From positions 1 through 46,501 of the forward strand of contig JASJEG010000003.1 in assembly GCA_030064765.1 (NCBI GenBank): a stretch of DNA of 46,501 nt, read 5' to 3'. The notes beneath the pieces are model-generated. The model searched no databases. It saw nothing but the letters and a program-made list of their open reading frames with translations, and was not told the DNA's origin. Shown piece after piece: positions 24,817 to 46,501 of the stretch. The position numbers and the translations under genes were made by a program. The stretch comes from Acidimicrobiia bacterium (lineage in GTDB: Bacteria > Actinomycetota > Acidimicrobiia > Spongiisociales > UBA5794). Within the stretch, counting starts at the first letter, position 1. Every line of letters starts with the position of its first letter.

Positions 24817-24885
24817 CTGCCGTCATTCCCCCCCAGGCGAGGTGGGCAAGAGAAAGCTGCGGGTTAGTTGTGTCGGGGGGTTCAC

Positions 24886-25674: not shown

Positions 25675-25719
25675 CCTGAGATGGTATCCCGATTGGTGGC
25701 GGCACGCGACTATCGATCG

Positions 25720-25741: not shown

Positions 25742-25846
25742 AAAGCCGAGCAGTGTCACTGAGACGCTGGGAGCCATAGCGACCACGATTGTCATTCCCG
25801 AATAGAGGCTCTCGCGGGCACGTCGTCGCCAACCAGGTTGTGATGT

Positions 25847-26434: not shown

Positions 26435-26609
26435 CAGACCTCGTGCCCCCTGGTTCCGGCGCCGACGTTCCAGCACGTCTTAGAGGCCTTGGCGCGGCCG
26501 CCCGGGGCCCGGACAGATCGGCCTGAGAACCCAACTTCCTGATCTGGTACTTCCAGGTGAGAAAGCGGTCCTATCGGGCCCATGGAGACCACCACACAGG
26601 CGCGTCGGC

Positions 26610-27575: not shown

Positions 27576-27613
27576 GCGAGTCCCTTCTCTGCGTGTGTTC
27601 CACGTTGCGGTGG

Positions 27614-28477: not shown

Positions 28478-28515
28478 CGCTCAGCCCCTTCGGTTTCAGA
28501 ATATGAGGTGGTCGT

Positions 28516-28929
28516 CTACCCCAGGCGCTGGACCCAGTCGCCGAACCCATCCGCTGCTACCGGCCCGCGAGACTTGAACGACCCGGTGACGTTGGCTCCG
28601 CGGCCTTCCAGGCTCGTGGCCATCTTGGGGAGCATTCCACCCGTCGCCAGCTTGTACGTGCAGAACACTGCGGCCGGTTTGCCGTCGAGGTTGCCGAGAC
28701 GACCGATGAAGTCCATCGTCTCCTTCGTGGCATGCTGGAGAATGACGTACACGCCCTTGCACCAGCTCCCGACACAGATCGCATCGGCCTCACTCACGAT
28801 CGCCGGATCTGCGTCTTGAACGGAGCCGACGGTGCATTGATGCCCGGCCGCCCGGACCACTTCTGCCATTGCCTCAGCCACCGCCTTGGTTGTACCGGTC
28901 TTGCTATCGAATACGATCGCTACGTTCAT
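28516..28929 (-). CDS. Flavodoxin-family protein
   Basis: 137 residues. IVFDSKTGTTKAVAEAM (5-21) is the FMN phosphate-binding loop (S-x-T-G-T-T) of flavodoxins. SEADAICVGSWCKGVYVILQHATKETMDFI and KPAAVFCTYKLATGGMLPKMAT correspond to the isoalloxazine-binding loops. It should carry electrons through FMN, possibly for one of the neighbouring reductases. The start codon overlaps the stop of the preceding small gene (ATGA). Confidence 0.85.
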   Translation of the reverse strand: MNVAIVFDSKTGTTKAVAEAMAEVVRAAGHQCTVGSVQDADPAIVSEADAICVGSWCKGVYVILQHATKETMDFIGRLGNLDGKPAAVFCTYKLATGGMLPKMATSLEGRGANVTGSFKSRGPVAADGFGDWVQRLG

Positions 28930-29192
28930 TGGCCGTTCTCCTTGTCATGGTCGCGGGACGCCGGTGGATCAACCTCGAATCGGAGCACCTCGATACCCAG
29001 ACTGCGGAGCAGATCGAGAGTGCTGTGCAACTGCGACTGATCGAGCAGGCCACCACTCAGCACCGTTCCGGCCGGGATAGCCTCTTGTTCGATATCGGTG
29101 AGGCCGAGATGGAAGTCATCATCCAGTCGTCCGTTGACCCAGATACGGAATTGCCGATCGGCCTGCCGGTGATCACTGTGTTGCGGGTCCAT
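28926..29192 (-). CDS. Small actinobacterial-type protein (GLLDQSQLH motif)
   Basis: 88 residues. The middle reads FRIWVNGRLDDDFHLGLTDIEQEAIPAGTVLSGGLLDQSQLHSTLDLLRSLGIEVLRFEV. The DQxxLHxxLxxLRxLGIxxL ending is a pattern I recall from many small actinobacterial proteins of unknown function. No membrane segment. It is translationally coupled to the flavodoxin gene and follows the MalT-type regulator by 69 bp, so it may be part of the regulator's target operon. Confidence 0.65.
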   Translation of the reverse strand: MDPQHSDHRQADRQFRIWVNGRLDDDFHLGLTDIEQEAIPAGTVLSGGLLDQSQLHSTLDLLRSLGIEVLRFEVDPPASRDHDKENGQ

Positions 29193-29243
29193 GGTCCCGA
29201 GTATCCAGGCAGCGAGGGTGGTGCGACATCCCCCGGCCGGCAG

Positions 29244-29267
29244 ACCCCCCGGGGTGATCCATCACCC
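29244..29267. promoter_or_regulatory. Second 13-mer copy and adjoining palindrome
   Basis: ACCCCCCGGGGTG at 29244-29256 is identical to 22924-22936. It runs into GGGTGAT-CC-ATCACCC (29252-29267), another palindrome that includes the stop of the LuxR-type gene. It could be an operator for the downstream small-protein/flavodoxin operon or a terminator of the regulator gene. Confidence 0.4.
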
Positions 29268-31517
29268 GAGGTCCAGGTCGTCGGCTGCCTCCAAGGCCGC
29301 AGCTCGCGACGTAACGCCGAGCTTGCGGTAGATCGACTTGGTGTAGCTCTTGATCGTGTTGTGTGAGATATACAGCTCGTTGGCTATCTCTCGAAGGGAC
29401 AATTCACCCCGGAGCATTCGCAGGACTTCTAGCTCGCGATCGGTGAGCGGGTCAACGTGCACGGTCCCGGCCGTTTCCTGTTGTGGCCTCCGCAACGCAA
29501 GCTTGCGTTCGGCGGCGGCGACGAGATCGACGATGCGTCCCCGTCCTCCGGGCCCGTCGACCAACGAGCGCGCTTCGCGAACGAGGGCGCGCTTTTCGGC
29601 ATAGTCCGTGCGGCACTCGGCCAGAGCCAGACACCCGTACGCAACGAAGATCGGTTCCACCCACTGCCGGGCCATGCCCAGGCCGGTGCTGATACAGGAG
29701 ATCGCTTCGTCCCGTTCGCCGCGGGCAAGGTGAACCTTGCCGAGGGCGAAGTGAGCAGCCATGCGATCGGGGTATCCGTTCCACTCGGCCGGTTCTGGAA
29801 GAGCGAGCGCCTTGTTGGCCGTTTCCTCCGCCGCCGCCCAGTCCCCAACTTCGGCGTAAGCCAGAGCAAGCAGGGCGGTGGCGCCGCCGTCCCGCACCGA
29901 CTGGCGGCTGCGGGCCAATACGCCTTCATGAAGCGGCGGTACGGCGTCGAGCGGCCCGGTGGTCCAGAAAGCGGCCATGCCAGCGGCCGCGATCGCCTGA
30001 GCAAAGAGGATCGAGTCTCTTGATCGCTCCTGATCAGCGATCGCCAGTAGAGCGGTCCGGGCGTAATCCGCATCACCGCCAGCGACCAGCTCACCAAACG
30101 CACGGTGCAACGCCACTGCGCCCTCGATGGTCGGCAACAGCTCGACGGGGACGCCGCCGAGAGCGGTCTCAGCCGCCTCCAACCACTTGGAGCTCGACGC
30201 AAAATCACCACGCGAGAGCGCGACGTTGAACCTGGCAACTGAAGTCATCGGGTTGGCAATGATCGCGTCGTCGGGTAACACCTGGAACCACCGCCACACG
30301 AGCGACCAGTTCGCACCCGTCCAGTCCCTTATGAGATAGCGGTCGATGAGCCGAGCGGCAAGCAGATTGTCCCCTGCGTCGATGGCGTGATCGACGGCTG
30401 GTTCTAGAGCATCGGTCTGGGCGTACCACTCTGCCGCAGCGAGATGCAGCGTGGGAATCAGGGTTGGGTCAGTCTTGCGCAGCTCGTGGCGCAACCAGTC
30501 GGCGAACAAGTGGTGATAGCGATACCAGCGGCGTTGGTTGTCAAGAGGAATCAGGAACAGGCCGCTTCTGTCCATGCGGTCGAGTATCTCCGCACCATCG
30601 CTGACGCCGGCGATTACCTCGCACAGCGGGCCGGTCATCTGGCCGAGCACCGAGGTGCGCAGCAAGAACTCCCGATCCCGATCGGACACAGTCCCGAGCG
30701 CCTCAGCGATGAGGAAGTCGGCGATGTTCCTGTCGTCACCTGCAAACCGACCAACAAACTCGGTGGCTTCCTCCGCCTCCCGGAGCGACAGACCGGCGAG
30801 ATGAACGGCGGCCGGCCAGCCTTCGGTCCGGCGCCGAAGCAGATCGACATCATCATCATCGAGATCCACGGCAAACCGGCTGCGGAGCAGCTCACTCGTT
30901 TCCCTCGACGAGAAGGCGAGGTCGTGGGCGCGGACCTCCATGAGATCGCCCGACGCCCGGAGGCGACCCAACGGTAGGTGGGGATCCGTCCGCGTGGAGA
31001 TGGCCAGCTGGACCCCAGGGGGGAGATGATCGATGAGATAGCCGACCGAGCTCTGAATGGCTGGCTCGGAGATGACGTGATAGTCGTCGAGTACCAGCAG
31101 GAGAGGCTGACCGGACTCGGCCAACTCGTTGAGCAACGATGGCACAACCTCCTGCATCGGATCGACGTCCGGACTGCGGAGCGCGTCGTCGGCGCCATCG
31201 ACGAGCCCGGGAAGGACCTTGCGGAGCGCAGCGATCACATACAACCAGAACAGCGGTGCGGCGTCGTCGCTTCCCTCCAGGCGGAGGAATGCGGTGTGCT
31301 GGCCGTCACGCTCGGACAACCAGGCGGATAGAAGAGAGGTCTTGCCCCACCCCGCAGGTGCACTGATCAGGTAGACCCGGGGAGCGCCGTCGGCCAACCG
31401 TTCGACCAGCTCCGGCCGGAGGAGCAGATGTGGTGATGGCCTTGGCTGTACCAGCTTGACGGTGAGCAGCGGAGTTGAGACCTGGCCGCCTGCGTCCCCT
31501 GCCTCCGTCACGAGCAT
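29262..31517 (-). CDS. MalT-type LuxR-family ATP-dependent regulator
   Basis: About 751 residues from ATG at 31517 (GGAGG just upstream; GTG at 31511 also fits, and the frame is open to 31598). The N-terminal STAND NTPase has Walker A SAPAGWGKTSLL (about 53-63) and Walker B LLLVLDDYHVI. A long alpha-helical, TPR-like sensor region follows (repeats such as ALAYAEVGDWAAAEETANKAL and HFALGKVHLARGERDEAI). The C-terminal LuxR HTH is complete: LTDRELEVLRMLRGELSLREIANELYISHNTIKSYTKSIYRKLGV. Such proteins oligomerise on ligand and ATP binding and activate target promoters. Ligand unknown. Likely targets are the adjacent genes sharing the G/C-tract motif. Confidence 0.92.
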   Translation of the reverse strand: MLVTEAGDAGGQVSTPLLTVKLVQPRPSPHLLLRPELVERLADGAPRVYLISAPAGWGKTSLLSAWLSERDGQHTAFLRLEGSDDAAPLFWLYVIAALRKVLPGLVDGADDALRSPDVDPMQEVVPSLLNELAESGQPLLLVLDDYHVISEPAIQSSVGYLIDHLPPGVQLAISTRTDPHLPLGRLRASGDLMEVRAHDLAFSSRETSELLRSRFAVDLDDDDVDLLRRRTEGWPAAVHLAGLSLREAEEATEFVGRFAGDDRNIADFLIAEALGTVSDRDREFLLRTSVLGQMTGPLCEVIAGVSDGAEILDRMDRSGLFLIPLDNQRRWYRYHHLFADWLRHELRKTDPTLIPTLHLAAAEWYAQTDALEPAVDHAIDAGDNLLAARLIDRYLIRDWTGANWSLVWRWFQVLPDDAIIANPMTSVARFNVALSRGDFASSSKWLEAAETALGGVPVELLPTIEGAVALHRAFGELVAGGDADYARTALLAIADQERSRDSILFAQAIAAAGMAAFWTTGPLDAVPPLHEGVLARSRQSVRDGGATALLALAYAEVGDWAAAEETANKALALPEPAEWNGYPDRMAAHFALGKVHLARGERDEAISCISTGLGMARQWVEPIFVAYGCLALAECRTDYAEKRALVREARSLVDGPGGRGRIVDLVAAAERKLALRRPQQETAGTVHVDPLTDRELEVLRMLRGELSLREIANELYISHNTIKSYTKSIYRKLGVTSRAAALEAADDLDLG

Positions 31518-31684
31518 CGCCTCCAATCCACCACTTACGTCCAAACCGTCCACAACCCAGTCGAGGTGCTTCCGCCGGCTTATCACGTACCAGCCCAAGC
31601 ACCCAGGGTGATCCTACTGGAGGGTGTGGTTGGACCCCCCTTCGGAGGCGGAGCATGGGGTCACGTCCTAGGAGAGAGGTTCCA

Positions 31685-32056
31685 ATGAAACGGACCGTTG
31701 TGTTTGCAGCTCTGGTCACAACCCTGTTCGCTGCTTGCGGCGACGATGCTTCGGATGAAGCGGCGGAGCCCGTCAGTATCGCCGACGCCATCGACACCGA
31801 AGGCGAAGTCGTCGTGACCGGTTACCTGTTCGTCCTCGATGGTGACTCCGTAGTGCTGGCTGAGCTGATCGCCGAATCGTTCCCGCCCCAACCGGGCGGC
31901 GCCACGATCACCGTCGAAGGTCTCGATCTCGCTGCCCTCGATCTGGAGGAAGCGCCCGAGGGATCTGAGCTGGCCACAACCAGGTGGTCATCCGAACCAG
32001 TCTCCCTCACCGGCTCGATTTCGTCCGGGGTTCTCACCGGCGCCGAGCTGGGATAG
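31685..32056 (+). CDS. Small lipoprotein
   Basis: 123 residues. The signal sequence MKRTVVFAALVTTLFAAC ends in a lipobox (LFAAC), so the mature protein is lipid-anchored outside the membrane, starting CGDDASDEAAE. The body is acidic: VVVTGYLFVLDGDSVVLAELIAESFPPQPGGATITVEGLDL could be a small beta-barrel (OB-like). ATG follows a GAGAGAGG tract. It is divergent from the LuxR-type gene and convergent with the giant gene, with the third hairpin element (32085-32190) behind it. Function unknown. Confidence 0.75.
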   Translation: MKRTVVFAALVTTLFAACGDDASDEAAEPVSIADAIDTEGEVVVTGYLFVLDGDSVVLAELIAESFPPQPGGATITVEGLDLAALDLEEAPEGSELATTRWSSEPVSLTGSISSGVLTGAELG

Positions 32057-32084
32057 GACCGCCGCGCCGCTGGTCTGCGTAGCT

Positions 32085-32190
32085 CCGTTCTGGCGCACAC
32101 CAGGCCCATATACGGGCCTCAGATCCGCCAAAACCGGGGTTTGGAACAGACCAGAGGCCCCCGGGCTGGGATCCCGGAGGCCTCTGTGGC
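32085..32190. repeat. Dispersed hairpin element, copy 3 (bidirectional terminator-like)
   Basis: CCGTTCTGGCG (32085-32095) pairs with CGCCAAAACCGG (32126-32137), with inner GGCCC (32103-32107) and GGGCC (32114-32118). AACAGA (32145-32150) follows, then a very strong hairpin CAGAGGCC (32152-32159), CCGGG, loop, CCCGG, GGCCTCTG (32179-32186). It lies between the lipoprotein gene (plus) and the end of the giant gene (minus), where a bidirectional terminator is expected. Confidence 0.65.
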
Positions 32191-32224
32191 CGGAACTTGG
32201 GTTGTTACCCCTTACCTTCCCCAA

Positions 32225-32243
32225 CCTATCGCTCAGCGATAGG
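32225..32243 (-). terminator. Hairpin after the giant surface protein gene
   Basis: CCTATCGCTCAGCGATAGG is a 19-bp inverted repeat (9-bp arms about one base) just 16 bp after the giant gene stop on the minus strand. No clear T-tract follows (ttgggg), so factor-assisted or combined termination with copy 3 of the hairpin element is likely. Confidence 0.45.
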
Positions 32244-32258
32244 CGGGGACCTGACCTG

Positions 32259-35200
32259 CTACAGCACCCTCCTTCGGTTGCTCCGCGGGGGGACTGACAA
32301 TGTGCGTCGCCGCGAGTACAGCACCATGGCTGCGCCTGCCGTCAGCATCACCAGCGCGGCCAGCAACAGGTCACCGAAGTTGGCGCCGGTGAACGGCAGA
32401 GTGTCGGGCGGATCATCCGGGTCCGGGTCGTCGCCCGGGCCGGGCAGCGTCAGCGGGGTGACCGCAATCGTGTGGGTGTGGATGATGCAGATCTGCGGAT
32501 CGTCGTCATCGCAGACCTCGACGATCACCTGATAGGTCCCAATCTCCTCGGTCACACCGTCGAAGGTGCCGTCCGGATTCAACGTGATCCCCGGTGGCAG
32601 CTCGCCGCTGATGTAGGTGACCGTCACCGGGCCACCATCGGGATCGAACACCGGCATCGGGCTCAACGGATCGCCGACGACGACCGACTGGAACGAAGCC
32701 TCGGGCCCCGGCGGCTCATTGACCTCGACGATGGTCACCGTGACCGTCGCGGTGTCACACAGCCCCGTTGCCGGGATGCCGCCGACCACACCATCCAGCT
32801 CGCAGATCGTGTACGTGAAGGTGTCCACACCAACGAAACCGGGATCCGGCGTGTAGGTGATGGTCCCGTCCGGGTTCACCACGATCGAGCCGTTGGCCGG
32901 ATCGGTAGTCGTGCTGATCGCAAAGCTGTGGCCGTCCGGGTCGCTGTCGTCGTCGAGCACGGTGATGACAACCGGGGTGTCCTCATCGGTGACATCCTCA
33001 TCGTCGACCGCAACCGGCGGGCGGTTGCCGACGAGCGGGAAGTCCGCAGTCAGATCGCTGCCACCACCCGGCAGTGACACGGTCACCGGCGGGGCAGTAC
33101 CGAGATCGGCCGGGATGGTCGTCTCGTCGATCTCGACCAGATACTCACCTGCGGGCAGACCGTCGACCAGGTACTGGCCGTTGTCGTCGGTGACGGTGGT
33201 GAAGACCACATCGTCACTCGTGCCGATGACACCGTCCGGGCCGGCCCAGGTGACATCAACCGTCACGTTGGATACGCCGGGCTCGCCACCGTCGAAGACA
33301 CCGTCACGGTTCAGGTCCTCGAAGACCTGATCACCGATCGAGCCGGTGCCCACCAGCGGGAAGTCGACATCGGTGCGGGCTTCCGCTGCACCGAGGGTTA
33401 CGGTCCGGTCGAGGTCGCCGCTGAGACCAGCAGGGATGCCGTCGATGATGACGGTGAACTCACCGGCCGGCAGTCCGTCGACCAGGTACGAACCGTCGGG
33501 TGCGGTTGTGGTGGCAAAGACGAGGTCGTCGCCGCCACCGGGCACGCCATCGGGGCCGAGCCAAGTCACCGTCACGCCGATGCCGCCAAGACCAGGCTCG
33601 CCCGGATCCTGGACGCCGTCGTCGTTGAGATCAAGCCAGACCAGGTCGCCGATCGAGCCGGTGGCCGTGTAGGCGAAGTCCACGTCCGGGTAGGTGGTGC
33701 CCTCCGGCAGTGTCAGCGTCGTCGCGCTGTCGAGCGTCGCATCCGGGTCGAGCGTCTGGAAGTCGACGCCTGCCGGCAGGTCGGCCGTGTCCACATCGAT
33801 CTGGTACTCGCCGGGCGGCACAAGGTCGAAGCTGTAGTCGCCGTTGCCGTCGGTGGTCGTTGTGAACACCTCATCGTCGGTGGTGCCGAAGACACCGTCG
33901 AGACCGGCCCAGGTGGCAGTCACATCGACGCCGCTGAGGCCAAGGTCGCCACCATCGATGGCGCCGTCACCGGCAATGTCGTGAGCGATGGTGCCGTTGA
34001 TGTTGCTGCGGACCAGCGCCACCACGTCGGCGGTATCGCTGTCGCTGACCGGGTTGTCGAGCGGATCAAACGAATCGACCGTCGCCGTATTGGTGAAGGA
34101 GGCTGCTGCGGCCGCCGTGCACGTATAGGTGACGGGGGCCGAACCGACCGGCAGATCGCCGATCACGTTGTCACATGCCGGGGCGAGCGGATCGCTCACG
34201 GTCACGTTGAACAGGTCGGTCTGGCCGGTGTTGGTGACGATGATCGTGAAGGTCGCATCGTCGCCCTCGACCACAGTCTGAGTGTCCGGGGTCTTCTGGA
34301 TGTCGATGCCGGGCACCAGCACGGTCACGTCGGCGGTGTCGCTGTCGCTCACGGTGGACCCGATCGGGTCGGTGCCGACCACGTCGGCCGTGTTGGTGAA
34401 GTCGGCGGTCACATCGCTCACCGAGCAGGTGTACGAGGTGGACTCGCCAACCGCCAGGTCGCCGATGGAGGCGTCGCAAGCCGGAACCGCAGTATCGGTG
34501 ACAGCCACATCGGTCAGGTCGACGTCACCGGCATTGGTGACCTCGATTGTGAAGGTGGCGCTGCCGCCGGTCACGACAGTCTGCCCGTCCGGCGACTTCT
34601 CGATGCTGATGGCCGGCCCGATTACATCGACGTCGGCTGTGTCGCTGTCGGAGACCGGTGCGTCGAGCGGGTCGCTGCCCGTCACCGATGCGGTGTTCGT
34701 GAAGTCGTCGGCAAGAGCAACCATGGAACAGGTGAAGCTGGCCGACTCGCCGACGGCCAGATCGCCGATCAGCGTGTCACAGGCCGGCGCCAGAGCGTCG
34801 GTCACGGTGACGTTGGTCAGCGGGGTAGCCCCAGCGTTGGTGACGGTGATGGTGAAGTCCACCGTGTCACCGGCCCGGGCCTGCTGCAGATCCGGTGTCT
34901 TCTGGACGTCGATCGCCGGCACCAGCACGGTCACGTCGGCGGTGTCGCTATCGCTCACGGTCTCACCGATCGGGTCGTTGCCCGTCACCGAGGCGGTGTT
35001 GGTGAAGTCACCGGCCACACCGCTCAGCGAGCAGCTGTAGGTGCTCGACTCGCCGACCGCCAGATCGCCGATGACGTTGTCACACACCGGGGCGGCCGGG
35101 TCGGAGACAGTGACGCCGGTCAGATCCACGTCGCCGGTGTTGGTGACGGTGATGTCGAAGGTGGCGGTGCCATTGATGACGACTGCCTGGTTATCCGGGG

Positions 35201-38200
35201 TCTTCTGGATGTCGATCGCCGGGTTGATGACATCCACCGCAGCATCGTCGGAGTCGGACACCGGGTTGCCCAAGGCGTCGGTGCCGTCGACAGCGGCGAT
35301 GTTGGTGAAGTCAGCAATGACACCGGTCGTCGTGCAGTCGTACGAGGTCGACTCACCGACCGCCAGAGCGGCGATGGTGGTGTCACACGCCGGAGTCAGC
35401 GCATCGGTGACCGTGAGGTCAACGAGATCCTGATCGCCGTTGTTGGTGACGGTGATGGTGAACGTGACGTCGTCACCGCTGTGGATCTGCTGGCTGTCCG
35501 GGGTCTTCTCGATCTGGACGCCCGGTGCAACAACATCGACCAGCGCATCGTCGCTGTCGGAGACCTGGGTCCCGAGCGGCGTGTCGGCGTTCACCGACGC
35601 CACGTTGGTGAAGTCGGCGGCGACTGCCGTGACGTCGCAGGTCACGGTTTCGCTGGCGCCGATGAGCAGACTGGCGAACGTGGCTTCACAGCCGGGGGCC
35701 AGCGGGTCGGTGATGACCACGTTGGTGAGATCGGTGTCACCCGTGTTGGTGACGGTGATCGTGAACGAGGCATCCTCAACGGCCAGCAGCGTCTGCAGAT
35801 CCGGGGTCTTCTCGATGCTGATCGCGGGGTCGACGAAGTCCACGTCGGCCGTATCGCTGTCGGTCACCGGGTTGCCGAGCGGGTCGTCGCCGGTCACCGA
35901 GGCGGTGTTGGTGAAGTCGCCGCTGATGCCGGTGACGTCGCAGGTGTAGGTCTCGACACCACCAACCGGGAGCGTGGCAGACGTCGCATCGCAGGTTGGG
36001 GCGAGCGGGTCGCTCACGATGACGTTGGTCAGCGCCGTAGCACCGGCGTTGGTGACGGTGATCGTGAACGTCGCCGTACCGTCCGGGCCGACCAGCTGGT
36101 TGTCCGGAGTCTTCTGGATGTCGATGGCCGGCACGAGCACGGTCACGTCGGCTGTGTCGCTGTCGCTCACCGGGCCGACCACGCTGTCTGCTACAACATC
36201 GGCGGTGTTGGTGAAGTCGGCAGCGGTCGCCGTGCCGTCGCACGTGTAGGTCTCATTGGCACCGACCGCCAGGCCGGCGAACGTGCTGTCGCAGGCCGGG
36301 GCGAGGGCATCGGTGATGACCACGTTGCTCAGATCGACGTCGCCGGTATTGGTGACGGTGATTGTGAACGTCGGGGTGCCGTTGAGCACGACACTCTGGT
36401 TGTCTGGTGTCTTCTCGATGCTGATGGCAGGCGCCACCACATCAACGTCGGCGGCGTCGCTGTCGCTTGCCGGGTTGCCTGCGGCATCGGTGGCGTCGAC
36501 TACTGCCGTGTTGGTGAGGTCGGCGGTCACAGTCAACGTGCAGCTGTATGTGGTGCTGGCGCCGACGGCGAGGTCACCGATGGACGCGTCACAGTTCGGG
36601 GCGAGAGCGTCGGTCACGGTGACGTTGCTGAGCGGCACGACACCTGCGTTGGTGACGGTGATGTCGAACGTGACTGTGTCGCCGATGCCGGCAACCTGCA
36701 GGTCCGGTGTCTTCTGGATGTCGACCTCAGGCACCAGCACCTCGACATCAGCTGTATCGGAGTCGCTCACGGTGCCGCCGGCGGCGTGGGTAGCCACGAC
36801 CGAGGCGGTGTTGGTGAAGCTGCTTGTCACTGCCGATGCGGCGCACGTGACGGTGGTCGATGCACCGGCACCGAGAGCCGGGATGACCGCGTCACAGGCC
36901 GGCGCCTGGACGTCGGTGATGATGACATTGGTCAGCGGGCTGTCCCCGTTGTTGGTGACGGTGATGGTGAAGTTGGCGTCCTGACCGGACAGGATTTGCT
37001 GGGTAGCCGGATCCTTGGTCAGGCTGATCGCCGGATCGATCACGTCGACATCGGCTGTGTCGCTGTCGTTCACAGCGTTGCCCAGCGGGTCGAGACCACT
37101 CACCGCTGCAGTGTTGGTGAAGTCGGCGGTGACACCGGTCACCGTGCAGTCGTAGCTGGTCGAGACGCCGGCGGCGAGATCGCCGATGGTGGCGTCACAA
37201 GCCGGGGCCAGAGCGTCGGTGACGGCCACGCCGGTCAGATCAACATCGCCGGTGTTGGTGACGGTGATCGTGAAGGTCACATCGTCACCGGTGACCACAT
37301 ACTGCAAGTCAGGAGTCTTCTCGATCTGGATGTCGGGGGCGATCACATCGACGATGGCGTCGTCGGAGTCGCTCACCGGGTTGCCCAGCGGGTCGAGACC
37401 AGACACCGAGGCGGTGTTGATGAAGTCGGACACCGCAGTCACGTCGCACGTGTAGCTGACGATCTCAGTAACGGCGAGGGCGCCGATGGTGTTGTCACAA
37501 ACCGGGGCAAGTGCGTCAGTGACGATTACGCCCACGAGATCCACATCACCGGTGTTCTCCACGGTAATGGTGAAGGTGGCGTCCTGGCCTGCCAGCACCT
37601 GCTGGGTAACGGGATCCTTAGTGATGCTGATCGCCGGGGCGATGACATCAACGTCGGCGCTGTCATCGTCGCTGACAATGCCGTTGAGCGGATGAGTACC
37701 GACCACCGATGCCGTGTTCGTGAAGTCGGCGATGACTCCGGTCACCGTGCAGCTGTAGGTGGTGCTGGCGCCGACGCCCAGATCGCCGATGGTGGCGGCG
37801 CAGCTGGGCGCAAGCGGATCGCTCACTGCAACATCGGTCAGCGGAGTAGTGCCGATGTTGGTCACGGTGATGGTGAAGGTGGCATCGCCGCCGCTGACTA
37901 CGACGGGTGTGTCGGCCGTCTTGGTGATCTGGATTGCAGGAGCCTCGATGACGACGTCGGCGGTGTCACTGTCCTCCACCGGGTTGCCCAGCGGGTCCTC
38001 GGCGGTGACGGTGGCGACGTTGGTGAAGCCGGCCGGGACTCCGGTCAGGGTGCAGGTGTAGGTCTCGCTGGCGCCGGTGGCGAGCGAGGCGAAGCTAGCG
38101 TCGCAGTTCGGGGCCTGCGGATCGGTGACCGTCACGTTCGTTAGTTCGGCATCGCCGGTGTTGGTCACCGTGATCGTGAACGTCGCGTCCCCGTTGGGGA

Positions 38201-41200
38201 GGATGGTCTGGCTGTCCGGACTCTTGTCGATGCTGATCGACGGATCAATGACAGTGACGTCGGCAGTGTCGGCGTCGGTCACGGTGCCGCCGGACGGTTC
38301 ACTGGCGGCAACGTCGGCAACGTTGGTGAAACCAGAGGTGACGCCGGTCACAGTGCAGTCGTAGGTCTGGATCTCGCCCATCAAGAGGGTGGCGAAGGTG
38401 ACGTCACAGGCCGGGGCCTGCGCATCTGTCACGACCACATTGGTCAAGTCGACATCACCTGTGTTCTCCACGGTGATGGTGAACGTGACGTCGGAGCCTG
38501 AGACCACCGTCTGCGTGTCCGGGGTCTTCTGGATATCGATCTCAGGGGCGATCACCTCGACGTCGGCGACGTCGGAGTCGGTGATCGGGTCCGGCGATGC
38601 CGGGTGCTCAGCAGCAACCACTGCGACGTTGGTGAAGTCCCCGGTGACGTTGGTGAGCGTGCAGCCATAGGTCTCGCTGGCACCGACGGCGAGGGTCGGG
38701 TAGGTGGCGTCGCAATTTGGAGCTTGCGGGTCGGTCACCACGACGTTGCTCAACGGCACGTCACCGATGTTGGTGACGGTGATGGTGAAGGTTGCCGTCT
38801 CGCCGCCGAGCAGCGTCTGGCTGTTCGGGTTCTTAGCGATGTCGATAGCCGGGTTGACCACATCGACGTCGGCGCTGTCGCTGTCGCTGACCGGAGTGCC
38901 GAGCGGGTCGTCGCCGGTCACCGAAGCAGTGTTAGTGAAATCGCCGCCACCAACGGTCGTGGTGCACGAGTAGGTGGTTGAAGCGCCGGCGGCCAGGCTG
39001 CCGATCACGTTGTCGCACGCCGGAGCGGCGGCGTCGGTGACGGTGACGCCCGAGAGGACCACATCACCGTTGTTGGTGACCGTGATGTCGAAGGTCACGG
39101 TGCCGCCGGCGATCGCCTGCTGGCTGTCCGGGCCTTTCTCAATGAGGATGCTCGGGTTGATGATGTCGACGTCGGCGCTGTCGCTGTCGCTTACCGGACC
39201 GCCCAGCGGGTCGTTGCCGGTTACCTCGGCCGTGTTGGTGAAGTCGACCGCACCGGCCGCCATCGTGCAGTCGTAGCCAACCGAGGCACCTACAGCGAGA
39301 TCGCCGATGCTGGTGTCGCAGGCCGGGGCAACGGCGTCGGTGACCGCTACACCGGTGAGGTCAACATCACCGGTATTGGTGACGGTGATCGTGAAGGTGA
39401 TGGTGTCGCCATCGTGGGCCTGCTGGGTGGCGGGATCCTTGGTGATGCTGATCGCCGGGACGATCACATCAACGTCGGCACTGTCGGTGTCGGTCACCGG
39501 GTTGCTCAACGGATCGTCAGCCGTGACGTTTGCCGTGTTGGTGAAGTCGTCCGCAAGAGCAGTCATGGTGCAGGTGTAGGTCTCTACAGCACCGGGAGCC
39601 ATCGAGGCGAAGGCCGCATCGCAGCTCGGGGCAACGGCGTCGGTCACGGTCACATCGGTGAGCGTCACGTCGCCCGTGTTCTCCACCCTGATGGTGAAGG
39701 TGACGATGTCGCCTTCACGGGCCTGCTGGCTATCCGGTGTCTTCTCGATGTCGATGGCCGGGCCGATCACGTCAACGTCGGCCGTGTCACTGTCGGAGAC
39801 AGTGCCGCCGGCAGCGTGGGTGCCGACAACCGAGGCGATGTTGGTGAAGTCGTTGGCGACATTGGCCAGCGAGCAGGTGTAGTCGGTTGAGGCGCCTGCG
39901 GCCAGGCTGCCGATCACGTTGTCACAAGCCGGGGCTGCCGGGTCGGTGACCGCCACATTGGTCAGGTCGACATCACCGGTGTTGGTGACGGTGATCGTGA
40001 AGGTGGCCGTTCCGTTGGCGAGCACCTGCTGGTTATCCGGGGTCTTCTGGATGTCAATGGCCGGGTTGATCACATCAACATCGGCGTCATCGCTATCGGT
40101 CACGGCTACGCCGTTGGGGTCATCACCGGTCACGTCGGCGGTGTTGGTGAAGTCAACGGCACCGGCAGTCATCGTGCACTGGTAGCTCGAGGACTCACCG
40201 ACGGCGAGATCGCCGATTGTGCTGTCGCAGTTCGGCGCCATCACATCGGTGACGGCCACACCGGTCAGGTCAACGTCACCGTTGTTGGTGACGGTGATGT
40301 CGAAGGTGACGGTGCCACCGGGTAGAGCGGACTGGGTGTCCGGGGTCTTGTCGATGGTGATTGCGGGATTGATCACATCGACAGCGGCATCATCGGAGTC
40401 GGCAACCGGGTCACCATTCGGATCGTCACCCGTCACCGAAGCGACGTTGATGTAGTCGTCGGCGAGGGCGGTCATCGTGCAGTCGTAGCTGGAAGATGCA
40501 CCAACCGTGAGGGCGCCGACTGTGTTGTCACAGGCCGGGGCAACCACGTCGGAGACGACAACGTTGGCCAGGTCCACGTCGCCGGTGTTGGTGACGGTGA
40601 TCGTGAAGGTCACTGTGTCCCCGGGACGGGCCTGCTGGCTATCCGGGGTCTTGTCTACGGTGATAGCGGGGTTGATCACATCAACATCGGCAGTGTCGCT
40701 GTCGGTCACCGGGTTGTTGAGCGGATCGTCGCCAGTCACCGAAGCGACGTTGATGTAGTCGTCGGCGAGGGCGGTCATCGTGCAGCTGTAGGTCTCGACG
40801 GCACCGGGCGCCATCGAGGCGAAGGTGGCATCACAATTCGGAGCGACTGCATCGGTGACCGAGACACTGGTCAGCGTGACGTCACCGGTGTTCTCGACAC
40901 GAATGTCGAATGTGACGGTGTCGCCCGGCCGGGCTTGCTGGCTATCCGGGGTCTTCTGGAGGTCAATGGCCGGGTTGATCACATCAACATCCGCACCATC
41001 GCTATCGGTCACCGGGTCACCGTTCGGATCATCACCAGTCACATCAGCAGTGTTGGTGAAGTCGAACGCACCGGCCGTCATCGAGCAGTCGTAGCTGGTG
41101 GAAGCACCGGCCGCGAGGGCGCCGATCACGTTGTCGCAAGCCGGGGCGGCGGCATCGGTGACGATGACGCCGGTCAGGTCAACGTCGCCGGTGTTCTCGA

Positions 41201-44200
41201 CCGTGATCGTGAAGGTGACAGTGTCGCCGTCCCGTGCCTGCTGGGTGTCCGGGGTCTTGTCGATGGTGATGGCGGGGTTGATGACATCGACGTTGGCGTC
41301 GTCGGCATCCGTCACCGGGTTGTTGAGCGGATCGTCAGCGGTCACGTCGGCTGTGTTGGTGAAGTCATCCGCAGCGGCGGTCATGGTGCAGGTGTAGGAC
41401 TCGACGGCGCCGGGAGCCATCGAGGCGAAGGTGGCGTCGCAGCTGGGAGCCACCGCATCGGTGACGGTCACATCGGTCAGGGTCACATCACCGGTGTTCT
41501 CCACGGTGATGGTGAAGGTGACGGTGTCACCCTCACGTGCCTGCTGGGTATCCGGAGTCTTCTCGATGTCGATCGCCGGGCCAATCACATCGACTTCGGC
41601 TGTGTCGCTGTCGGTAACGGTGCCACCGGCGGCATGGGTGCCGACAACCGATGCGATGTTGGTGAAGTCGGCGGTCACGTTGGCCAGCGAGCACGTATAG
41701 GTGGTCGAGTCGCCCGCAGCCAGGTTGCCGATCACGTTGTCACACGCCGGGGCGGCCGGATCGGTTGCCTCGACATCGGTCAGATCCACGTCGCCGGTGT
41801 TGGTGACGGTGATGTCGAAAGTGGCCGTGCCGTTGGCCAGCACCTGCTGGAAGTCCGGGGTCTTGTCGATCGTGATTGCGGGGTTGATCACATCAACGGT
41901 TGCGGTGTCGTCGTCGGTGACCGGATCGCCGTTCGGATCATCACCAGTCACATCAGCAGTGTTGGTGAAGTCGAGAGCGCCGGCGGTCATCGTGCAGTCG
42001 TAGCTCGAGATCTCGCCAGTAGCCAGGTCGCCGATCACGCTGTCACACGCCGGAGCGACGGCGTCGGTGACCGTCACACCGGTCAGATCGACGTCGCCTG
42101 TGTTCTCCACGGTGATCGTGAACGTCACGGTCGAACCCGGCAGAGCAAACTGCGAGTCCGGGGTCTTCTGGATGGTGATGGCGGGGTTGATCACATCAAC
42201 ATCCGCATCATCACTGTCGGACACCGGATCGCCGTTCGGGTCGTCACCCGCCACGGCAGCGGTGTTCGTGAAGTCATCGGCAAGGGCCGTCATCGTGCAG
42301 TCGTAGGTCTCGATCGAACCCGGAGCCATCGAAGCGAAGCTGGCGTCACAGCTGGGTGCGACTGCATCCGAGACGGCGACGTCGGTGAGGGTCACATCAC
42401 CGGTGTTCTCAACGGTGATGGTGAAGGTGACCGTGTCGCCGGGTCGAGCCTGCTGGGTGTCCGGGGTCTTCTGGATGTCGATGGCGGGGTTGATGACGTC
42501 GACAGCAGCGTCGTCGCTGTCCGCGACCGGATCGCCGTTCGGGTCGTTGCCGGTCACCGAAGCGACGTTGATGAAGTCGTCGGCGCCGGCAGTCATCGTG
42601 CAGGAGTATGTCTGCACTGCACCGGGGGCCATCGAGGCGAAGGTGGCGTCACAGCTGGGAGCGACTGCATCGGTGACCGAGACACTGGTCAACGTGACGT
42701 CACCGGTGTTCTCCACCCGGATATCGAAGCTGACGGTGTCACCAGAACGGGCCTGCTGGCTATCCGGAGTCTTCTCGATGTCGATCGCCGGGTTGATCAC
42801 ATCAACATCCGCATCGTCACTGTCGGACACCGGATCGCCATTGGGGTCATCACCGGTGACATCAGCGGTGTTGGTGAAGTCATCGGCGCCGGCGATCATC
42901 GTGCAGTCGTAGCTGGACGATGCACCGACGGCGAGAGGCCCGATCACGCTGTCACAGCTCGGAGCGACGACATCGCTGACCGTCACGTCGGTCAGGTCAA
43001 CATCACCGGTGTTCTCAACGGTGATGGTGAAGGTGACCGTGTCACCGGGCCGGGCCTGCTGGCTGTCCGGGGTCTTGTCGATGGTGATGGCCGGGTTGAT
43101 CACGTCGACATCGGCATCGTCGGAGTCGGTCACCGGGTTGCTCAGCGGATCGTCACCTGTCACGTCGGCCGTGTTGGTGAAGTCATCAGCTCCGGCAGTC
43201 ATCGTGCAGTCGTAGGTCTCGATCGCACCCGGTGCCATCGTGACGAAGCTGGCGTCGCAGTTGGGTGCGACTGCATCCGAGACGGCGACGTCGGTCAGGG
43301 TCACATCACCGGTGTTCTCGACGGTGATCGTGAACGTAACCGTGTCACCGGCACGTGCCTGCTGGGTGTTCGGGGTCTTGGCGATCGTGATCGCAGGGTT
43401 GATGACATCAACATCGGCAGTATCGCTGTCGGAGACCGGATCGTCATTGGGGTCATCACCGGTGACCGAGGCTGTGTTTGTGAAGTCGTCAGCGCCGGCA
43501 AGCATCGTGCACGAGTAGGTCTGCACCGCACCGGGAGCCATCGAAGCAAACGTCGCATCGCAGTTCGGTGCGACAACGTCGGAAACGGCCACATCGGTAA
43601 GGGCCACATCACCGGTGTTCTCAACACGAATATCGAAGGTGACGGTGTCGCCTTCCCGGGCCTGCTGAGTGTCCGGGGTCTTCTCGATGTCGATCGCCGG
43701 GTTGATCACATCAACATCGGCACTGTCACTGTCCCCTACCGGGTCACCATTCGGGTCGTCGCCGGTCACCGATGCGGTGTTGGTGAAGTCATCCGCACCT
43801 GCGGTCATCGAGCAGGAGTAGGTCTCGACCGCTCCCGGCGCCATCGAGGCAAACGTGGCATCGCAGGCCGGGGCGACAGCATCGGATACGGCGACGTCGG
43901 TGAGAGTCACATCGCCGGTGTTGGTCACCGTGATGGTGAAGGTGGCCGTGTCCCCAGGACGCACCTGCTGAGTGTCCGGGGTCTTGTCGATGTCGATTGC
44001 CGGGTTGATCACATCAACAGCAGCATCATCACTGTCCCCTACCGGATCGCCATTCGGGTCATCGCCGGTCACCGAAGCGGTATTGATGAAGTCGTCGGCG
44101 AGGGCCGGCATCGAGCAGGTGTAGGTCTCCACTGCGCCGGGAGCCATCGAGGCGAAGGTGGCGTCGCAGTTGCGAGCAACCGCATCGGTGACGGCCACAT

Positions 44201-46501
44201 CGGTGAGCGTCACATCACCGGTGTTCTCCACGGTGATGGTGAAGGTGACCGTGTCACCAGGTCGGGCCTGCTGGGTGTTCGGGGTCTTGTCGATCGTGAT
44301 AGCCGGGTTGATGACATCAACATCGGCAGCGTCGCTATCGCTCACCGGGTCGCCGTTCGGGTCATCACCCGTCACGTCAGCCGTGTTGGTGAAGTCATCC
44401 GCAAGGGCGGTCATCGAGCAGTCGTAGCTCGTGGAGGCGCCAACTGCGAGAGCACCGACCGTGTTGTCACACGCCGGGGCGACGACGTCGGTAACGGTGA
44501 CATCGGTCAGGTCCACATCACCGGTGTTCTCCACGGTGATGGTGAAGGTGACGGTGTCCCCAGGACGCACCTGCTGGCTATCGGGGGTCTTGTCGATCGT
44601 GATCGCCGGGTTGATCACATCAACATTCGCACCATCACTGTCCCCTACCGGGTCGCCGTTCGGGTCATCGGCAGTGACCGAGGCGGTGTTGGTGAAGTCA
44701 TCGACACCGGCAGTCATCGAGCAGTCGTAGCTCGAGGACTCACCGGCTACGAGGTCACCGATCACGGCATCACAGCTCGGAGCAACAGCGTCAGTGACCG
44801 TGACATCGGTCAGGTCCACATCACCAGTGTTCTCCACGGTGATGGTGAAGGTGACCGTATCGGCAGGACGCGCCTGCTGAGTGTCCGGGGTCTTGTCGAT
44901 CGTGATGGCCGGGTTGATCACATCAACAGCAGCATCGTCGCTGTCGACAACGGGGTTACCCAACGGGTCGTCGCCGGTCACATCCGCAGTGTTGGTGAAG
45001 TCATCCGCACCGGCAGTCATCGAGCATGAGTACGTCTCGACCGCACCCGCAGCCAAGGAGGCAAACGTCGCATCACAGGCCGGAGCGACAGCATCGGAGA
45101 CCTCTACATCGGTAAGGACCACATCACCCGTGTTCTCCACCCGGATGTCAAAGGTCACCGTGTCACCGGGACGCACCTGCTGGCTATCAGGCGTCTTCTC
45201 GATATCGATAGCCGGGCCGATCACATCAACGTTGGCAGTGTCCGAATCAGTGACGGTGCCGCCGGCAGCATGGGTACCAACCACCGAAGCGACGTTGGTG
45301 AAGTCGGAAGTCACGTTGGCCAGCGAGCAGACGTAGGAGACCGAGGCGCCGGCAGCCAGATCACCGATCGCGCTGCCACAGGCCGGGACCAGTGCGTCCG
45401 TGACCTCGACATCGGTGAGATCAGCATCGCCGGTGTTCGTGACGGTGATCGTGAAAGTGGCAGTTCCTCCGGAGAGGACTTGCTGGTTGTCCGGGCTCTT
45501 GGTGATCTCGATGTCGGGATCGATGACGACAACGTCGGCGTCGTCGCTGTCGGTGACCGTTCCCCCGGCAGCGTGGGTGCCAACTACAGAAGCAGTGTTG
45601 GTGAAGTCAGCGGTCACGTTGCTCTGCGAGCAGGTGTACGAGGCGGAATCGCCCGGAGCCAGATCAACAATCGGACCGCCGCAGGCTGGAACCAGCGTGT
45701 CGGTGACGAGAACGTTGGTCAGCATCGAGTCGCCGGTGTTGACCACGGTGATGGTGAAGGAGGCATCGCTACCCGTGAGGATCGTTTGCGAGTTCGGGCT
45801 CTTGGTGATGCTGATGGCGGGATCGATGACGGTGACATCGGCACCGTCAGCATCCGAGACCGTGCCGCCGGCGGCATGCGAACCGACTGCCGAAGCAACG
45901 TTGGTGAAGCCGGCAGTCACACTGCTCAGCGAGCAGGTGTAGGAAGTTGAGGCACCAGCAGCCAGATCACCGATCACGCGGTCACAGTCCGGCGCCAGCA
46001 CGTCGGTCACCTCAACATCGGTGAGGCCGGCATCGCCGGTGTTGGTGACGGTGATCGTGAAGGTCGCCGCTGTGCCGGTCAGGATCGTCTGGCTGTCCGG
46101 TGTCTTCTCGATCTGGATAGCGGGGTCGATGACGGTGACATCGGCATCGTCGGAATCGGTGACGGTACCCCCGGCGGCATGCGATCCGACCACCGAGGCA
46201 ACGTTGGTGAAGCCGGCAGTCACGTTGGCAACTGAGCACGTATACGAGGTGGAGGCACCGGCAGCCAGATCACCGATCACGCTGTCACAGGCTGGGGCGA
46301 GTGCGTCGGTCACCTCAACATCGGTGAGGTCGGCATCGCCGGTGTTGGTGACGGTGATCGTGTAGGTCGCCGCTGTGCCGGTCAGGATCGTCTGGCTGTC
46401 CGGTGTCTTCTCGATCTCGATTGCCGGGGCGATTAGGTCGGTCGTGTGCGTGTCGTCGTCGGTGACGGGATCACCGTCCTCGTCGTCGCCGGTGGCGGTG
46501 C
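32259..46501 (-). CDS. Giant LPXTG surface protein with 41 or more ~101-residue repeats (5' truncated)
   Basis: At least 4,746 residues; the frame is open past the window edge, so the start and signal peptide are not seen. In order: 41 repeats of about 101 residues (46427-34011) of DUF11/DUF7507 type (PAIxIxKTPDxQxxxxGxTxTFxI ... NTGDxxLTxVxVTD ... APxCD ... GxxxxYxC ... FTNxAxVxG ... DSDxAxVDVI); three SdrD B-like domains (34010-33030, GSIGDxVxxDLNxDGVxDxGEPG); a cadherin-like domain (PPVAVDDEDVTDEDTPV, about 33026-32730); an Ig-like domain (PPGITLNPDGTFDGV, about 32720-32480); and the sortase signal LPFTG (32385-32399), a membrane helix and SRRR. It is probably covalently cell-wall linked as a long adhesin or fibre. 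No sortase gene is in the window. Its antisense ORFs are shadows. Confidence 0.93.
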   Translation of the reverse strand, partial: TATGDDEDGDPVTDDDTHTTDLIAPAIEIEKTPDSQTILTGTAATYTITVTNTGDADLTDVEVTDALAPACDSVIGDLAAGASTSYTCSVANVTAGFTNVASVVGSHAAGGTVTDSDDADVTVIDPAIQIEKTPDSQTILTGTAATFTITVTNTGDAGLTDVEVTDVLAPDCDRVIGDLAAGASTSYTCSLSSVTAGFTNVASAVGSHAAGGTVSDADGADVTVIDPAISITKSPNSQTILTGSDASFTITVVNTGDSMLTNVLVTDTLVPACGGPIVDLAPGDSASYTCSQSNVTADFTNTASVVGTHAAGGTVTDSDDADVVVIDPDIEITKSPDNQQVLSGGTATFTITVTNTGDADLTDVEVTDALVPACGSAIGDLAAGASVSYVCSLANVTSDFTNVASVVGTHAAGGTVTDSDTANVDVIGPAIDIEKTPDSQQVRPGDTVTFDIRVENTGDVVLTDVEVSDAVAPACDATFASLAAGAVETYSCSMTAGADDFTNTADVTGDDPLGNPVVDSDDAAVDVINPAITIDKTPDTQQARPADTVTFTITVENTGDVDLTDVTVTDAVAPSCDAVIGDLVAGESSSYDCSMTAGVDDFTNTASVTADDPNGDPVGDSDGANVDVINPAITIDKTPDSQQVRPGDTVTFTITVENTGDVDLTDVTVTDVVAPACDNTVGALAVGASTSYDCSMTALADDFTNTADVTGDDPNGDPVSDSDAADVDVINPAITIDKTPNTQQARPGDTVTFTITVENTGDVTLTDVAVTDAVARNCDATFASMAPGAVETYTCSMPALADDFINTASVTGDDPNGDPVGDSDDAAVDVINPAIDIDKTPDTQQVRPGDTATFTITVTNTGDVTLTDVAVSDAVAPACDATFASMAPGAVETYSCSMTAGADDFTNTASVTGDDPNGDPVGDSDSADVDVINPAIDIEKTPDTQQAREGDTVTFDIRVENTGDVALTDVAVSDVVAPNCDATFASMAPGAVQTYSCTMLAGADDFTNTASVTGDDPNDDPVSDSDTADVDVINPAITIAKTPNTQQARAGDTVTFTITVENTGDVTLTDVAVSDAVAPNCDASFVTMAPGAIETYDCTMTAGADDFTNTADVTGDDPLSNPVTDSDDADVDVINPAITIDKTPDSQQARPGDTVTFTITVENTGDVDLTDVTVSDVVAPSCDSVIGPLAVGASSSYDCTMIAGADDFTNTADVTGDDPNGDPVSDSDDADVDVINPAIDIEKTPDSQQARSGDTVSFDIRVENTGDVTLTSVSVTDAVAPSCDATFASMAPGAVQTYSCTMTAGADDFINVASVTGNDPNGDPVADSDDAAVDVINPAIDIQKTPDTQQARPGDTVTFTITVENTGDVTLTDVAVSDAVAPSCDASFASMAPGSIETYDCTMTALADDFTNTAAVAGDDPNGDPVSDSDDADVDVINPAITIQKTPDSQFALPGSTVTFTITVENTGDVDLTGVTVTDAVAPACDSVIGDLATGEISSYDCTMTAGALDFTNTADVTGDDPNGDPVTDDDTATVDVINPAITIDKTPDFQQVLANGTATFDITVTNTGDVDLTDVEATDPAAPACDNVIGNLAAGDSTTYTCSLANVTADFTNIASVVGTHAAGGTVTDSDTAEVDVIGPAIDIEKTPDTQQAREGDTVTFTITVENTGDVTLTDVTVTDAVAPSCDATFASMAPGAVESYTCTMTAAADDFTNTADVTADDPLNNPVTDADDANVDVINPAITIDKTPDTQQARDGDTVTFTITVENTGDVDLTGVIVTDAAAPACDNVIGALAAGASTSYDCSMTAGAFDFTNTADVTGDDPNGDPVTDSDGADVDVINPAIDLQKTPDSQQARPGDTVTFDIRVENTGDVTLTSVSVTDAVAPNCDATFASMAPGAVETYSCTMTALADDYINVASVTGDDPLNNPVTDSDTADVDVINPAITVDKTPDSQQARPGDTVTFTITVTNTGDVDLANVVVSDVVAPACDNTVGALTVGASSSYDCTMTALADDYINVASVTGDDPNGDPVADSDDAAVDVINPAITIDKTPDTQSALPGGTVTFDITVTNNGDVDLTGVAVTDVMAPNCDSTIGDLAVGESSSYQCTMTAGAVDFTNTADVTGDDPNGVAVTDSDDADVDVINPAIDIQKTPDNQQVLANGTATFTITVTNTGDVDLTNVAVTDPAAPACDNVIGSLAAGASTDYTCSLANVANDFTNIASVVGTHAAGGTVSDSDTADVDVIGPAIDIEKTPDSQQAREGDIVTFTIRVENTGDVTLTDVTVTDAVAPSCDAAFASMAPGAVETYTCTMTALADDFTNTANVTADDPLSNPVTDTDSADVDVIVPAISITKDPATQQAHDGDTITFTITVTNTGDVDLTGVAVTDAVAPACDTSIGDLAVGASVGYDCTMAAGAVDFTNTAEVTGNDPLGGPVSDSDSADVDIINPSILIEKGPDSQQAIAGGTVTFDITVTNNGDVVLSGVTVTDAAAPACDNVIGSLAAGASTTYSCTTTVGGGDFTNTASVTGDDPLGTPVSDSDSADVDVVNPAIDIAKNPNSQTLLGGETATFTITVTNIGDVPLSNVVVTDPQAPNCDATYPTLAVGASETYGCTLTNVTGDFTNVAVVAAEHPASPDPITDSDVADVEVIAPEIDIQKTPDTQTVVSGSDVTFTITVENTGDVDLTNVVVTDAQAPACDVTFATLLMGEIQTYDCTVTGVTSGFTNVADVAASEPSGGTVTDADTADVTVIDPSISIDKSPDSQTILPNGDATFTITVTNTGDAELTNVTVTDPQAPNCDASFASLATGASETYTCTLTGVPAGFTNVATVTAEDPLGNPVEDSDTADVVIEAPAIQITKTADTPVVVSGGDATFTITVTNIGTTPLTDVAVSDPLAPSCAATIGDLGVGASTTYSCTVTGVIADFTNTASVVGTHPLNGIVSDDDSADVDVIAPAISITKDPVTQQVLAGQDATFTITVENTGDVDLVGVIVTDALAPVCDNTIGALAVTEIVSYTCDVTAVSDFINTASVSGLDPLGNPVSDSDDAIVDVIAPDIQIEKTPDLQYVVTGDDVTFTITVTNTGDVDLTGVAVTDALAPACDATIGDLAAGVSTSYDCTVTGVTADFTNTAAVSGLDPLGNAVNDSDTADVDVIDPAISLTKDPATQQILSGQDANFTITVTNNGDSPLTNVIITDVQAPACDAVIPALGAGASTTVTCAASAVTSSFTNTASVVATHAAGGTVSDSDTADVEVLVPEVDIQKTPDLQVAGIGDTVTFDITVTNAGVVPLSNVTVTDALAPNCDASIGDLAVGASTTYSCTLTVTADLTNTAVVDATDAAGNPASDSDAADVDVVAPAISIEKTPDNQSVVLNGTPTFTITVTNTGDVDLSNVVITDALAPACDSTFAGLAVGANETYTCDGTATAADFTNTADVVADSVVGPVSDSDTADVTVLVPAIDIQKTPDNQLVGPDGTATFTITVTNAGATALTNVIVSDPLAPTCDATSATLPVGGVETYTCDVTGISGDFTNTASVTGDDPLGNPVTDSDTADVDFVDPAISIEKTPDLQTLLAVEDASFTITVTNTGDTDLTNVVITDPLAPGCEATFASLLIGASETVTCDVTAVAADFTNVASVNADTPLGTQVSDSDDALVDVVAPGVQIEKTPDSQQIHSGDDVTFTITVTNNGDQDLVDLTVTDALTPACDTTIAALAVGESTSYDCTTTGVIADFTNIAAVDGTDALGNPVSDSDDAAVDVINPAIDIQKTPDNQAVVINGTATFDITVTNTGDVDLTGVTVSDPAAPVCDNVIGDLAVGESSTYSCSLSGVAGDFTNTASVTGNDPIGETVSDSDTADVTVLVPAIDVQKTPDLQQARAGDTVDFTITVTNAGATPLTNVTVTDALAPACDTLIGDLAVGESASFTCSMVALADDFTNTASVTGSDPLDAPVSDSDTADVDVIGPAISIEKSPDGQTVVTGGSATFTIEVTNAGDVDLTDVAVTDTAVPACDASIGDLAVGESTSYTCSVSDVTADFTNTADVVGTDPIGSTVSDSDTADVTVLVPGIDIQKTPDTQTVVEGDDATFTIIVTNTGQTDLFNVTVSDPLAPACDNVIGDLPVGSAPVTYTCTAAAAASFTNTATVDSFDPLDNPVSDSDTADVVALVRSNINGTIAHDIAGDGAIDGGDLGLSGVDVTATWAGLDGVFGTTDDEVFTTTTDGNGDYSFDLVPPGEYQIDVDTADLPAGVDFQTLDPDATLDSATTLTLPEGTTYPDVDFAYTATGSIGDLVWLDLNDDGVQDPGEPGLGGIGVTVTWLGPDGVPGGGDDLVFATTTAPDGSYLVDGLPAGEFTVIIDGIPAGLSGDLDRTVTLGAAEARTDVDFPLVGTGSIGDQVFEDLNRDGVFDGGEPGVSNVTVDVTWAGPDGVIGTSDDVVFTTVTDDNGQYLVDGLPAGEYLVEIDETTIPADLGTAPPVTVSLPGGGSDLTADFPLVGNRPPVAVDDEDVTDEDTPVVITVLDDDSDPDGHSFAISTTTDPANGSIVVNPDGTITYTPDPGFVGVDTFTYTICELDGVVGGIPATGLCDTATVTVTIVEVNEPPGPEASFQSVVVGDPLSPMPVFDPDGGPVTVTYISGELPPGITLNPDGTFDGVTEEIGTYQVIVEVCDDDDPQICIIHTHTIAVTPLTLPGPGDDPDPDDPPDTLPFTGANFGDLLLAALVMLTAGAAMVLYSRRRTLSVPPRSNRRRVL
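32385..32399 (-). other. Sortase sorting motif LPFTG
   Basis: LPFTG, followed by ANFGDLLLAALVMLTAGAAMV (helix) and LYSRRR, is the full tripartite cell-wall sorting signal: cleavage between T and G, membrane helix, basic tail. Confidence 0.9.
34011..46427 (-). repeat. Tandem coding repeat array, 41 x about 303 bp
   Basis: Each unit encodes about 101 residues with two conserved Cys. By the start motif xAIxIxKTP/KDP/KSP, 41 units fit into 12,417 bp (mean 303 bp). Central units (about 45.2-39.4 kb) are most alike, with QQARPGDTVTFTITVENTGDV near-constant; units toward the C-terminus are more varied. Two main sub-types alternate: one with CDATFASMAPGAVETY and one with CDxxIGDLAxGxSxSY. The array continues beyond the window edge. 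Confidence 0.92.

Follow-up and report, generated by a model that had tools for sequence, protein, structure and literature searches.

Fibrillar-adhesin stalks of CLIPPER (DUF11, PF01345) and CLIPPER_2 (DUF7507, PF24346) domains combine a tandem repeat array, placed between a head and a sorting signal, with a Lys/Asp/Asn triad in the repeats (PMC12617251). The name CLIPPER_2 was given to DUF7507 in a recent survey of intramolecular isopeptide bonds, in which a Lys-Asn isopeptide is predicted for this family, with Lys, Asp and Asn as bond and catalytic residues; roughly one in three CLIPPER and CLIPPER_2 stalks also contains disulfides, and no model in the survey was longer than 1,280 aa (PMC12617251). 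Huge DUF11-containing bacterial proteins of >5,000 aa have been listed as an extracellular group (PMC11573180), and the extracellular surface proteins Giant1-5 of Apilactobacillus kunkeei reach 3,000-8,000 aa (PMC12863079). In the Gram-negative Marinomonas primoryensis, the 1.5-MDa adhesin MpAFP carries a head on very many Ig-like repeats of ~100 aa, with ~120 identical repeats stiffened by Ca2+ (PMC4083281).

The window analysed here spans all 46,501 bp of contig C193, which belongs to the MAG (3.16 Mb, 77.9% complete) of an uncultured member of the Acidimicrobiia, and the window carries a giant ORF whose product is probably (about 75%) a fibrillar adhesin, in which a beta-propeller head would be held off the wall on a covalently stiffened, sortase-attached stalk. 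The protein would be an attachment candidate for a poorly cultured group. It is a very large, regular representative of known bacterial adhesion proteins, ordinary in principle and not a new kind, since giant DUF11 proteins (PMC11573180) and giant Ig-repeat adhesins such as MpAFP (PMC4083281) have been described before. It shares the repeat family, the triad and the general layout with CLIPPER stalks, but differs from them in its 41 consecutive units, each with the triad and a Cys pair. Because of the limit on model length, arrays of this size lie outside the published survey, and CLIPPER_2 is here extended far beyond 1,280 residues. What this locus adds to the listed DUF11 proteins is the resolution, for one Acidimicrobiia lineage, of repeat family, triad, head and anchor and of their evolution within the genus. 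MpAFP differs by its identical repeats; the repeats at this locus have diverged, their stiffening is presumed to be covalent, the anchor is of the sortase type and no RTX signal was detected. Giant1-5 belong to another lineage and are alike in size and location. Giant size is not unique to this protein, as ORFs with related tails measure 5,074 aa (G053) and 6,571 aa (G023); the latter, from another genus of the family (tail match at G023:C109:12350-12928), is larger than the protein of the window. The DUF7507 family itself is common in the class, being present in 66 of the 198 genomes sampled across Acidimicrobiia.

The giant ORF comprises 4,746 residues and a stop, and its reading frame leaves the contig at the contig end, so that the 5' end is open (Table 1). 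At 63.8% GC, about 38 codons between stops would be expected in a random frame (by arithmetic), and comparison with the sister genome gave dN/dS values of 0.14 for the C-part (dN 0.013, dS 0.097) and 0.25 for the N-part (dN 0.030, dS 0.121). Thus, the frame is not a product of chance, and the ratios indicate purifying selection. The earlier note on this DNA had described a frame of at least 4,746 residues running to the window edge with 41 visible repeats; all 4,746 codons proved open, and a profile built from the repeats delimited exactly 41 units, back to back and without gaps. The HMM search that it had proposed against DUF11, DUF7507 and SdrD_B matched all three families, the Pfam scan giving 41 DUF7507 stretches and as many of DUF11 overlapping them, together with three SdrD_B domains and a single Big_9. 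From its domain list, the SdrD_B and Ig-like domains and the LPFTG motif were retained, whereas the domain called cadherin-like corresponds to Pfam Big_9 (PF17963) and was relabelled. On the plus strand opposite the array, two further long ORFs (window 33981-38144, 1,387 aa; 40935-45029, 1,364 aa) are explained as by-products of the GC-rich in-phase repeat, not as genes.

Table 1. Parts of the giant ORF and their positions in the window.
Feature	Position	Strand	Residues or basis
Giant ORF, 4,746 aa visible, 5' cut by contig end	32259..46499	-	
Last 24 residues of head/neck region, end of DUF11/DUF7507-like domain, common to L069 and C225	46428..46499	-	
Array of 41 DUF7507 (CLIPPER_2) repeats, 98-102 aa each	34020..46427	-	aa 25-4160
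Units 1-25, lineage-specific expansion	38853..46427	-	
Units 31-41, old and position-specific	34020..37337	-	
Three SdrD_B domains	33027..34019	-	aa 4161-4491; Pfam
Big_9 bacterial Ig (cadherin-like) domain	32733..33026	-	aa 4492-4589; Pfam
C-terminal Ig-like region	32454..32720	-	aa 4594-4682; sequence
Pro/Asp/Gly wall-spanning linker, LTLPGPGDDPDPDDPPDT	32400..32453	-	sequence
LPFTG sorting motif	32385..32399	-	
Hydrophobic segment and positively charged tail, SRRRTLSVPPRSNRRRVL	32262..32384	-	sequence and PF00746 match

The repeats match DUF7507/CLIPPER_2 with 1415.8 bits against a gathering score of 27. Lys7, Asp41, Asn75, Cys47 and Cys64 of the unit are invariant in 41 of 41 units of C193, each with exactly one Lys and two Cys, and the same five residues are kept in every full-length unit of C193 and of its homologues C169 and C225 in the same bin. 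The Lys-to-Asp spacing of 34 residues is close to the 33 of the crystallised CLIPPER domain, whose triad is Lys715/Asp748/Asn806 (PMC12617251). The structure prediction suggested in the earlier note was run on units 6-7 with AlphaFold2 and returned a very confident Ig-like all-beta fold (mean pLDDT 97.7): two tandem domains of eight strands each, in line with the roughly seven-stranded, compact Ig-like beta-sandwich that characterises CLIPPER_2, with Lys7, Asp41 and Asn75 all located in strands. A Lys7-Asn75 isopeptide assisted by Asp41 is predicted in each unit from this pattern. Solved structures were searched with the repeat profile, without a match at E 0.01, and with a single unit, which gave weak matches only; the crystallised CLIPPER domain 9IFR was absent from the matches of both.

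Variation among units points in the same direction. The triad was found in 249 of 252 distinct units across the loci compared, and both units lacking the Lys also lack the Asn (Fisher 9.5e-5, with small loss counts and units that are not phylogenetically independent), whereas seven other conserved positions showed no such link to the Lys. One of these two units, in L049, has Asn/Asp/Ala at the triad positions, and one of the two is a distant unit. The two Cys positions also co-occur, with both present in 190 units, neither in 39 and one in 23, again among units that are not phylogenetically independent. The joint loss of Lys and Asn, which concerns two units, and the joint gain or loss of the Cys pair would be natural evidence for the predicted cross-links.

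Most of the array could be compared with two contigs, L046 and L069, of G003, another MAG of the same genus. L046 aligns collinearly and without gaps to window 26884-39659 (98.1% identity), a stretch that takes in the last part of unit 23, everything from there to the stop, and downstream genes, and confirms units 23-41; L069 covers units 1-10 and 15-17 and joins the head to the region of repeats 1-14. Units ~18-22 and 12-14 are represented in one assembly only. An assembly or binning artefact, that is, a chimeric array or a wrong unit number, might be suspected because the source is a MAG, C193 ends exactly at the edge of the array, contigs of the compared congeners are broken at homologous arrays, and the bin includes a second, more diverged contig set (C169, C225) that points to a co-binned relative. 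Nevertheless, this reading is already largely refuted and hardly credible: exact repeats in the array reach 50-59 nt at the longest, with none of 60 nt or more, so that short reads can resolve it, the 4,746 codons contain neither stop nor frameshift, and the collinearity with L046, and with L069 over units 1-10, is gap-free. Stops or frameshifts inside the array, which would have spoken against the reading of the earlier note, were absent from both sister-genome contigs spanning most of the array, and an artefact can be set aside over most of its length.

The start of the protein, which C193 lacks, was reconstructed from L069, so that the head sequence described here is that of the sister genome. 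This contig is 95.2% identical in DNA to the first 3,748 coding bases of the window and encodes a putative signal peptide, a beta-propeller head and a DUF11 neck joined to the repeat array. Its probable start Met (MKTYKSQ...) is followed by a basic n-region, a hydrophobic stretch and TPAAAA/PGDG, as judged by eye, and lies 1,168 residues before the residue matching C193 residue 1. Added to the 4,746 residues of C193, this would give a full-length protein of ~5,914 aa. A third congener provides a near-complete homologue, L045, cut by a contig end just before the anchor, with a signal-peptide-like start (by eye) followed by DUF11, P_proprotein, seven SdrD_B, 25 strong repeats, Big_9 and the linker. 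The signal peptide that the earlier note expected at the true N-terminus therefore has a likely counterpart in both orthologue and homologue.

The first ~250 residues of the head were modelled as an all-beta domain (AlphaFold2 mean pLDDT 86.9) with Foldseek matches largely to beta-propellers, including the archaeal S-layer YVTN propeller 1l0q, and with a weak Pfam match to DUF4394; six DUF11 stretches follow the propeller domain in L069. The head is 76-80% identical across four congeneric proteins. Beta-propellers also serve structural roles. The match to an S-layer protein would suit a structural fibre of a coat or matrix, such as S-layer-like fuzz or a biofilm scaffold, acting in spacing, shielding or cell cohesion with no specific tip ligand, as would the strongly acidic, Thr/Asp/Val-rich chain and the fact that the Pfam scan of the protein, head included, recognised no adhesive domain. 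The two-unit model also gave fold matches to the biofilm scaffold RbmA, to integrins (stalk domains) and to transglutaminases; these matches were not taken as kinship, and those to RbmA and integrins may only reflect the common Ig layout. A C-terminally anchored single chain with a conserved, distinct N-terminal head has the layout of a fibrillar adhesin, which makes a coat or matrix role unlikely.

Beyond these proteins, two ORFs of 2,107 and 2,353 aa (L051-L055, on G000:C67 and C76) contain several head-like propeller domains in tandem, ~36-41% identical to the head of the giant protein. The head-bearing genes of five congeneric genomes (L021, L069, L070, L071 and L045) have a common upstream synteny, including a PLP-enzyme-like gene near C225:7763-8676, which places the head at one conserved locus; the head types differ among the five, with either the propeller first or DUF11 followed by another propeller-like region.

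At the opposite end, the last 69 residues match Gram_pos_anchor (PF00746) with 22.4 bits against a cut-off of 20, and the LPFTG motif is followed by a hydrophobic stretch and a charged tail. The sole sortase gene in the MAG, a PF04203 gene on C214 encoding 240 aa, is class F-like, its 138.9 bits lying below the NCBIfam class F cut-off of 166. Only two ORFs in the MAG, the giant ORF of C193 and that of C169, exceed the LPXTG-anchor cut-off, so that one sortase and two anchored proteins would form a simple enzyme-substrate pairing within this incomplete genome; the class F-like sortase would attach the LPFTG motif to the wall. The Pfam scan found no RTX family and the C-terminus is an LPXTG signal, so the protein does not belong with RTX/type I-secreted giant adhesins.

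The published features of fibrillar adhesin-like proteins include an extracellular location, an adhesive region that is usually terminal, a rigid-rod stalk and a surface anchor (PMC8286594). Several of them support a fibrillar adhesin. The PF00746 match above cut-off supplies the anchor, and the 41 tandem Ig-like units are a stalk-like region that may be a rigid rod. The N-terminal beta-propeller is a candidate adhesive region, outside the known adhesive Pfam domains, and the signal-peptide-like starts of L069 and L045 would suit an extracellular location. The earlier reading of a sortase-anchored multi-repeat surface fibre stands; the adhesive role and the length above 100 nm that it proposed are inferences. 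We propose that a protein of ~5,900 residues would be exported through its N-terminal signal peptide, with the propeller head and then the DUF11 neck, both as seen in the sister orthologue, at the free end, carried by 41 CLIPPER_2 domains in series. Within each domain, Lys7 in the first strand would join Asn75 with the assistance of Asp41, and a disulfide would link Cys47 to Cys64, making each module resistant to unfolding and proteolysis. With 4 nm per unit, a family-based value, the array would measure ~160 nm, the SdrD_B and Ig domains would span the near-wall zone, and sortase would join the LPFTG motif to the wall.

The two ends of the array have different histories. Units 31-41 are in register with units 5-15 of C169, most being mutual best matches, and units 32-41 with the final ten of L045 and of L072, the homologues from congeners; this part of the array is an old base near the wall in which units keep their positions. 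The greatest mutual similarity is found among units 1-25 (mean 66% amino acid identity between units), which are a lineage-specific expansion. A six-unit higher-order period was detected in units 5-24, the value at lag 6 being reached in 0 of 5,000 shuffles; the period is weaker if any lag may win (74 of 5,000). Where C193 has four units (11-14), L069 has one, followed by units 15, 16 and 17, and this three-unit difference between sisters fits unequal exchange in the part of the array nearer the head. Such arrays would then grow in a changing zone nearer the head, gaining and losing units there over a fixed wall-proximal base.

The three-unit difference and the concentration of exchange in one zone would also accommodate a length-regulating "periscope" role, as proposed for SasG (PMC9210967), in which shorter surface proteins are hidden or uncovered by the stalk to a degree set by the number of units. 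We regard this as very unlikely here, since any tandem array is expected to change in length and the conservation of the head among congeners indicates that the tip itself seems to matter. The chances appear about even that all ~41 consecutive domains are locked twice, by Lys-Asn isopeptide and disulfide, which would place the protein among the longest covalently locked single-chain stalks, and that its length evolves by block gain and loss near the head with the wall-proximal units fixed, forming a natural, tunable, inextensible tether.

The homologous contigs C169 and C225 are ~72-78% identical to the C193/G003 set. C225 alone among the contigs of the MAG matches the head in full; it holds a different gene copy and was rejected as the missing N-terminus of the C193 gene, as its six repeats are unlike units 1-6 and it has no 31-mer in common with C193. 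C225 and C169 show no end overlap, and their joining is plausible. Calling C169 a paralogue is not safe: beside its homologue of the giant gene, C169 carries a second phosphofructokinase gene (L006 15359-17434), ~75% identical to the 745-aa enzyme with two PFK stretches encoded at window 4558-6795 on the minus strand. Given this second gene and the level of identity, C169 and C225 may belong to a congener binned together with C193; tetranucleotide profiles gave no separation.

The genes near the giant ORF encode a LuxR/MalT-like regulator, a sulfate permease and a nucleotidyltransferase, which suggests no dedicated operon. In L048 (G003:C69), a 93%-identical anchor end is followed by genes syntenic with window 11534-25730, and most of the 25.7-32.2 kb segment (window 25730-32258) is absent, reflecting either a strain variant or an insertion/deletion beside the giant gene. 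A streptomycin adenylyltransferase-family gene (PF04439, E 1e-40) is located at window 26610-27575 on the minus strand of this environmental contig.
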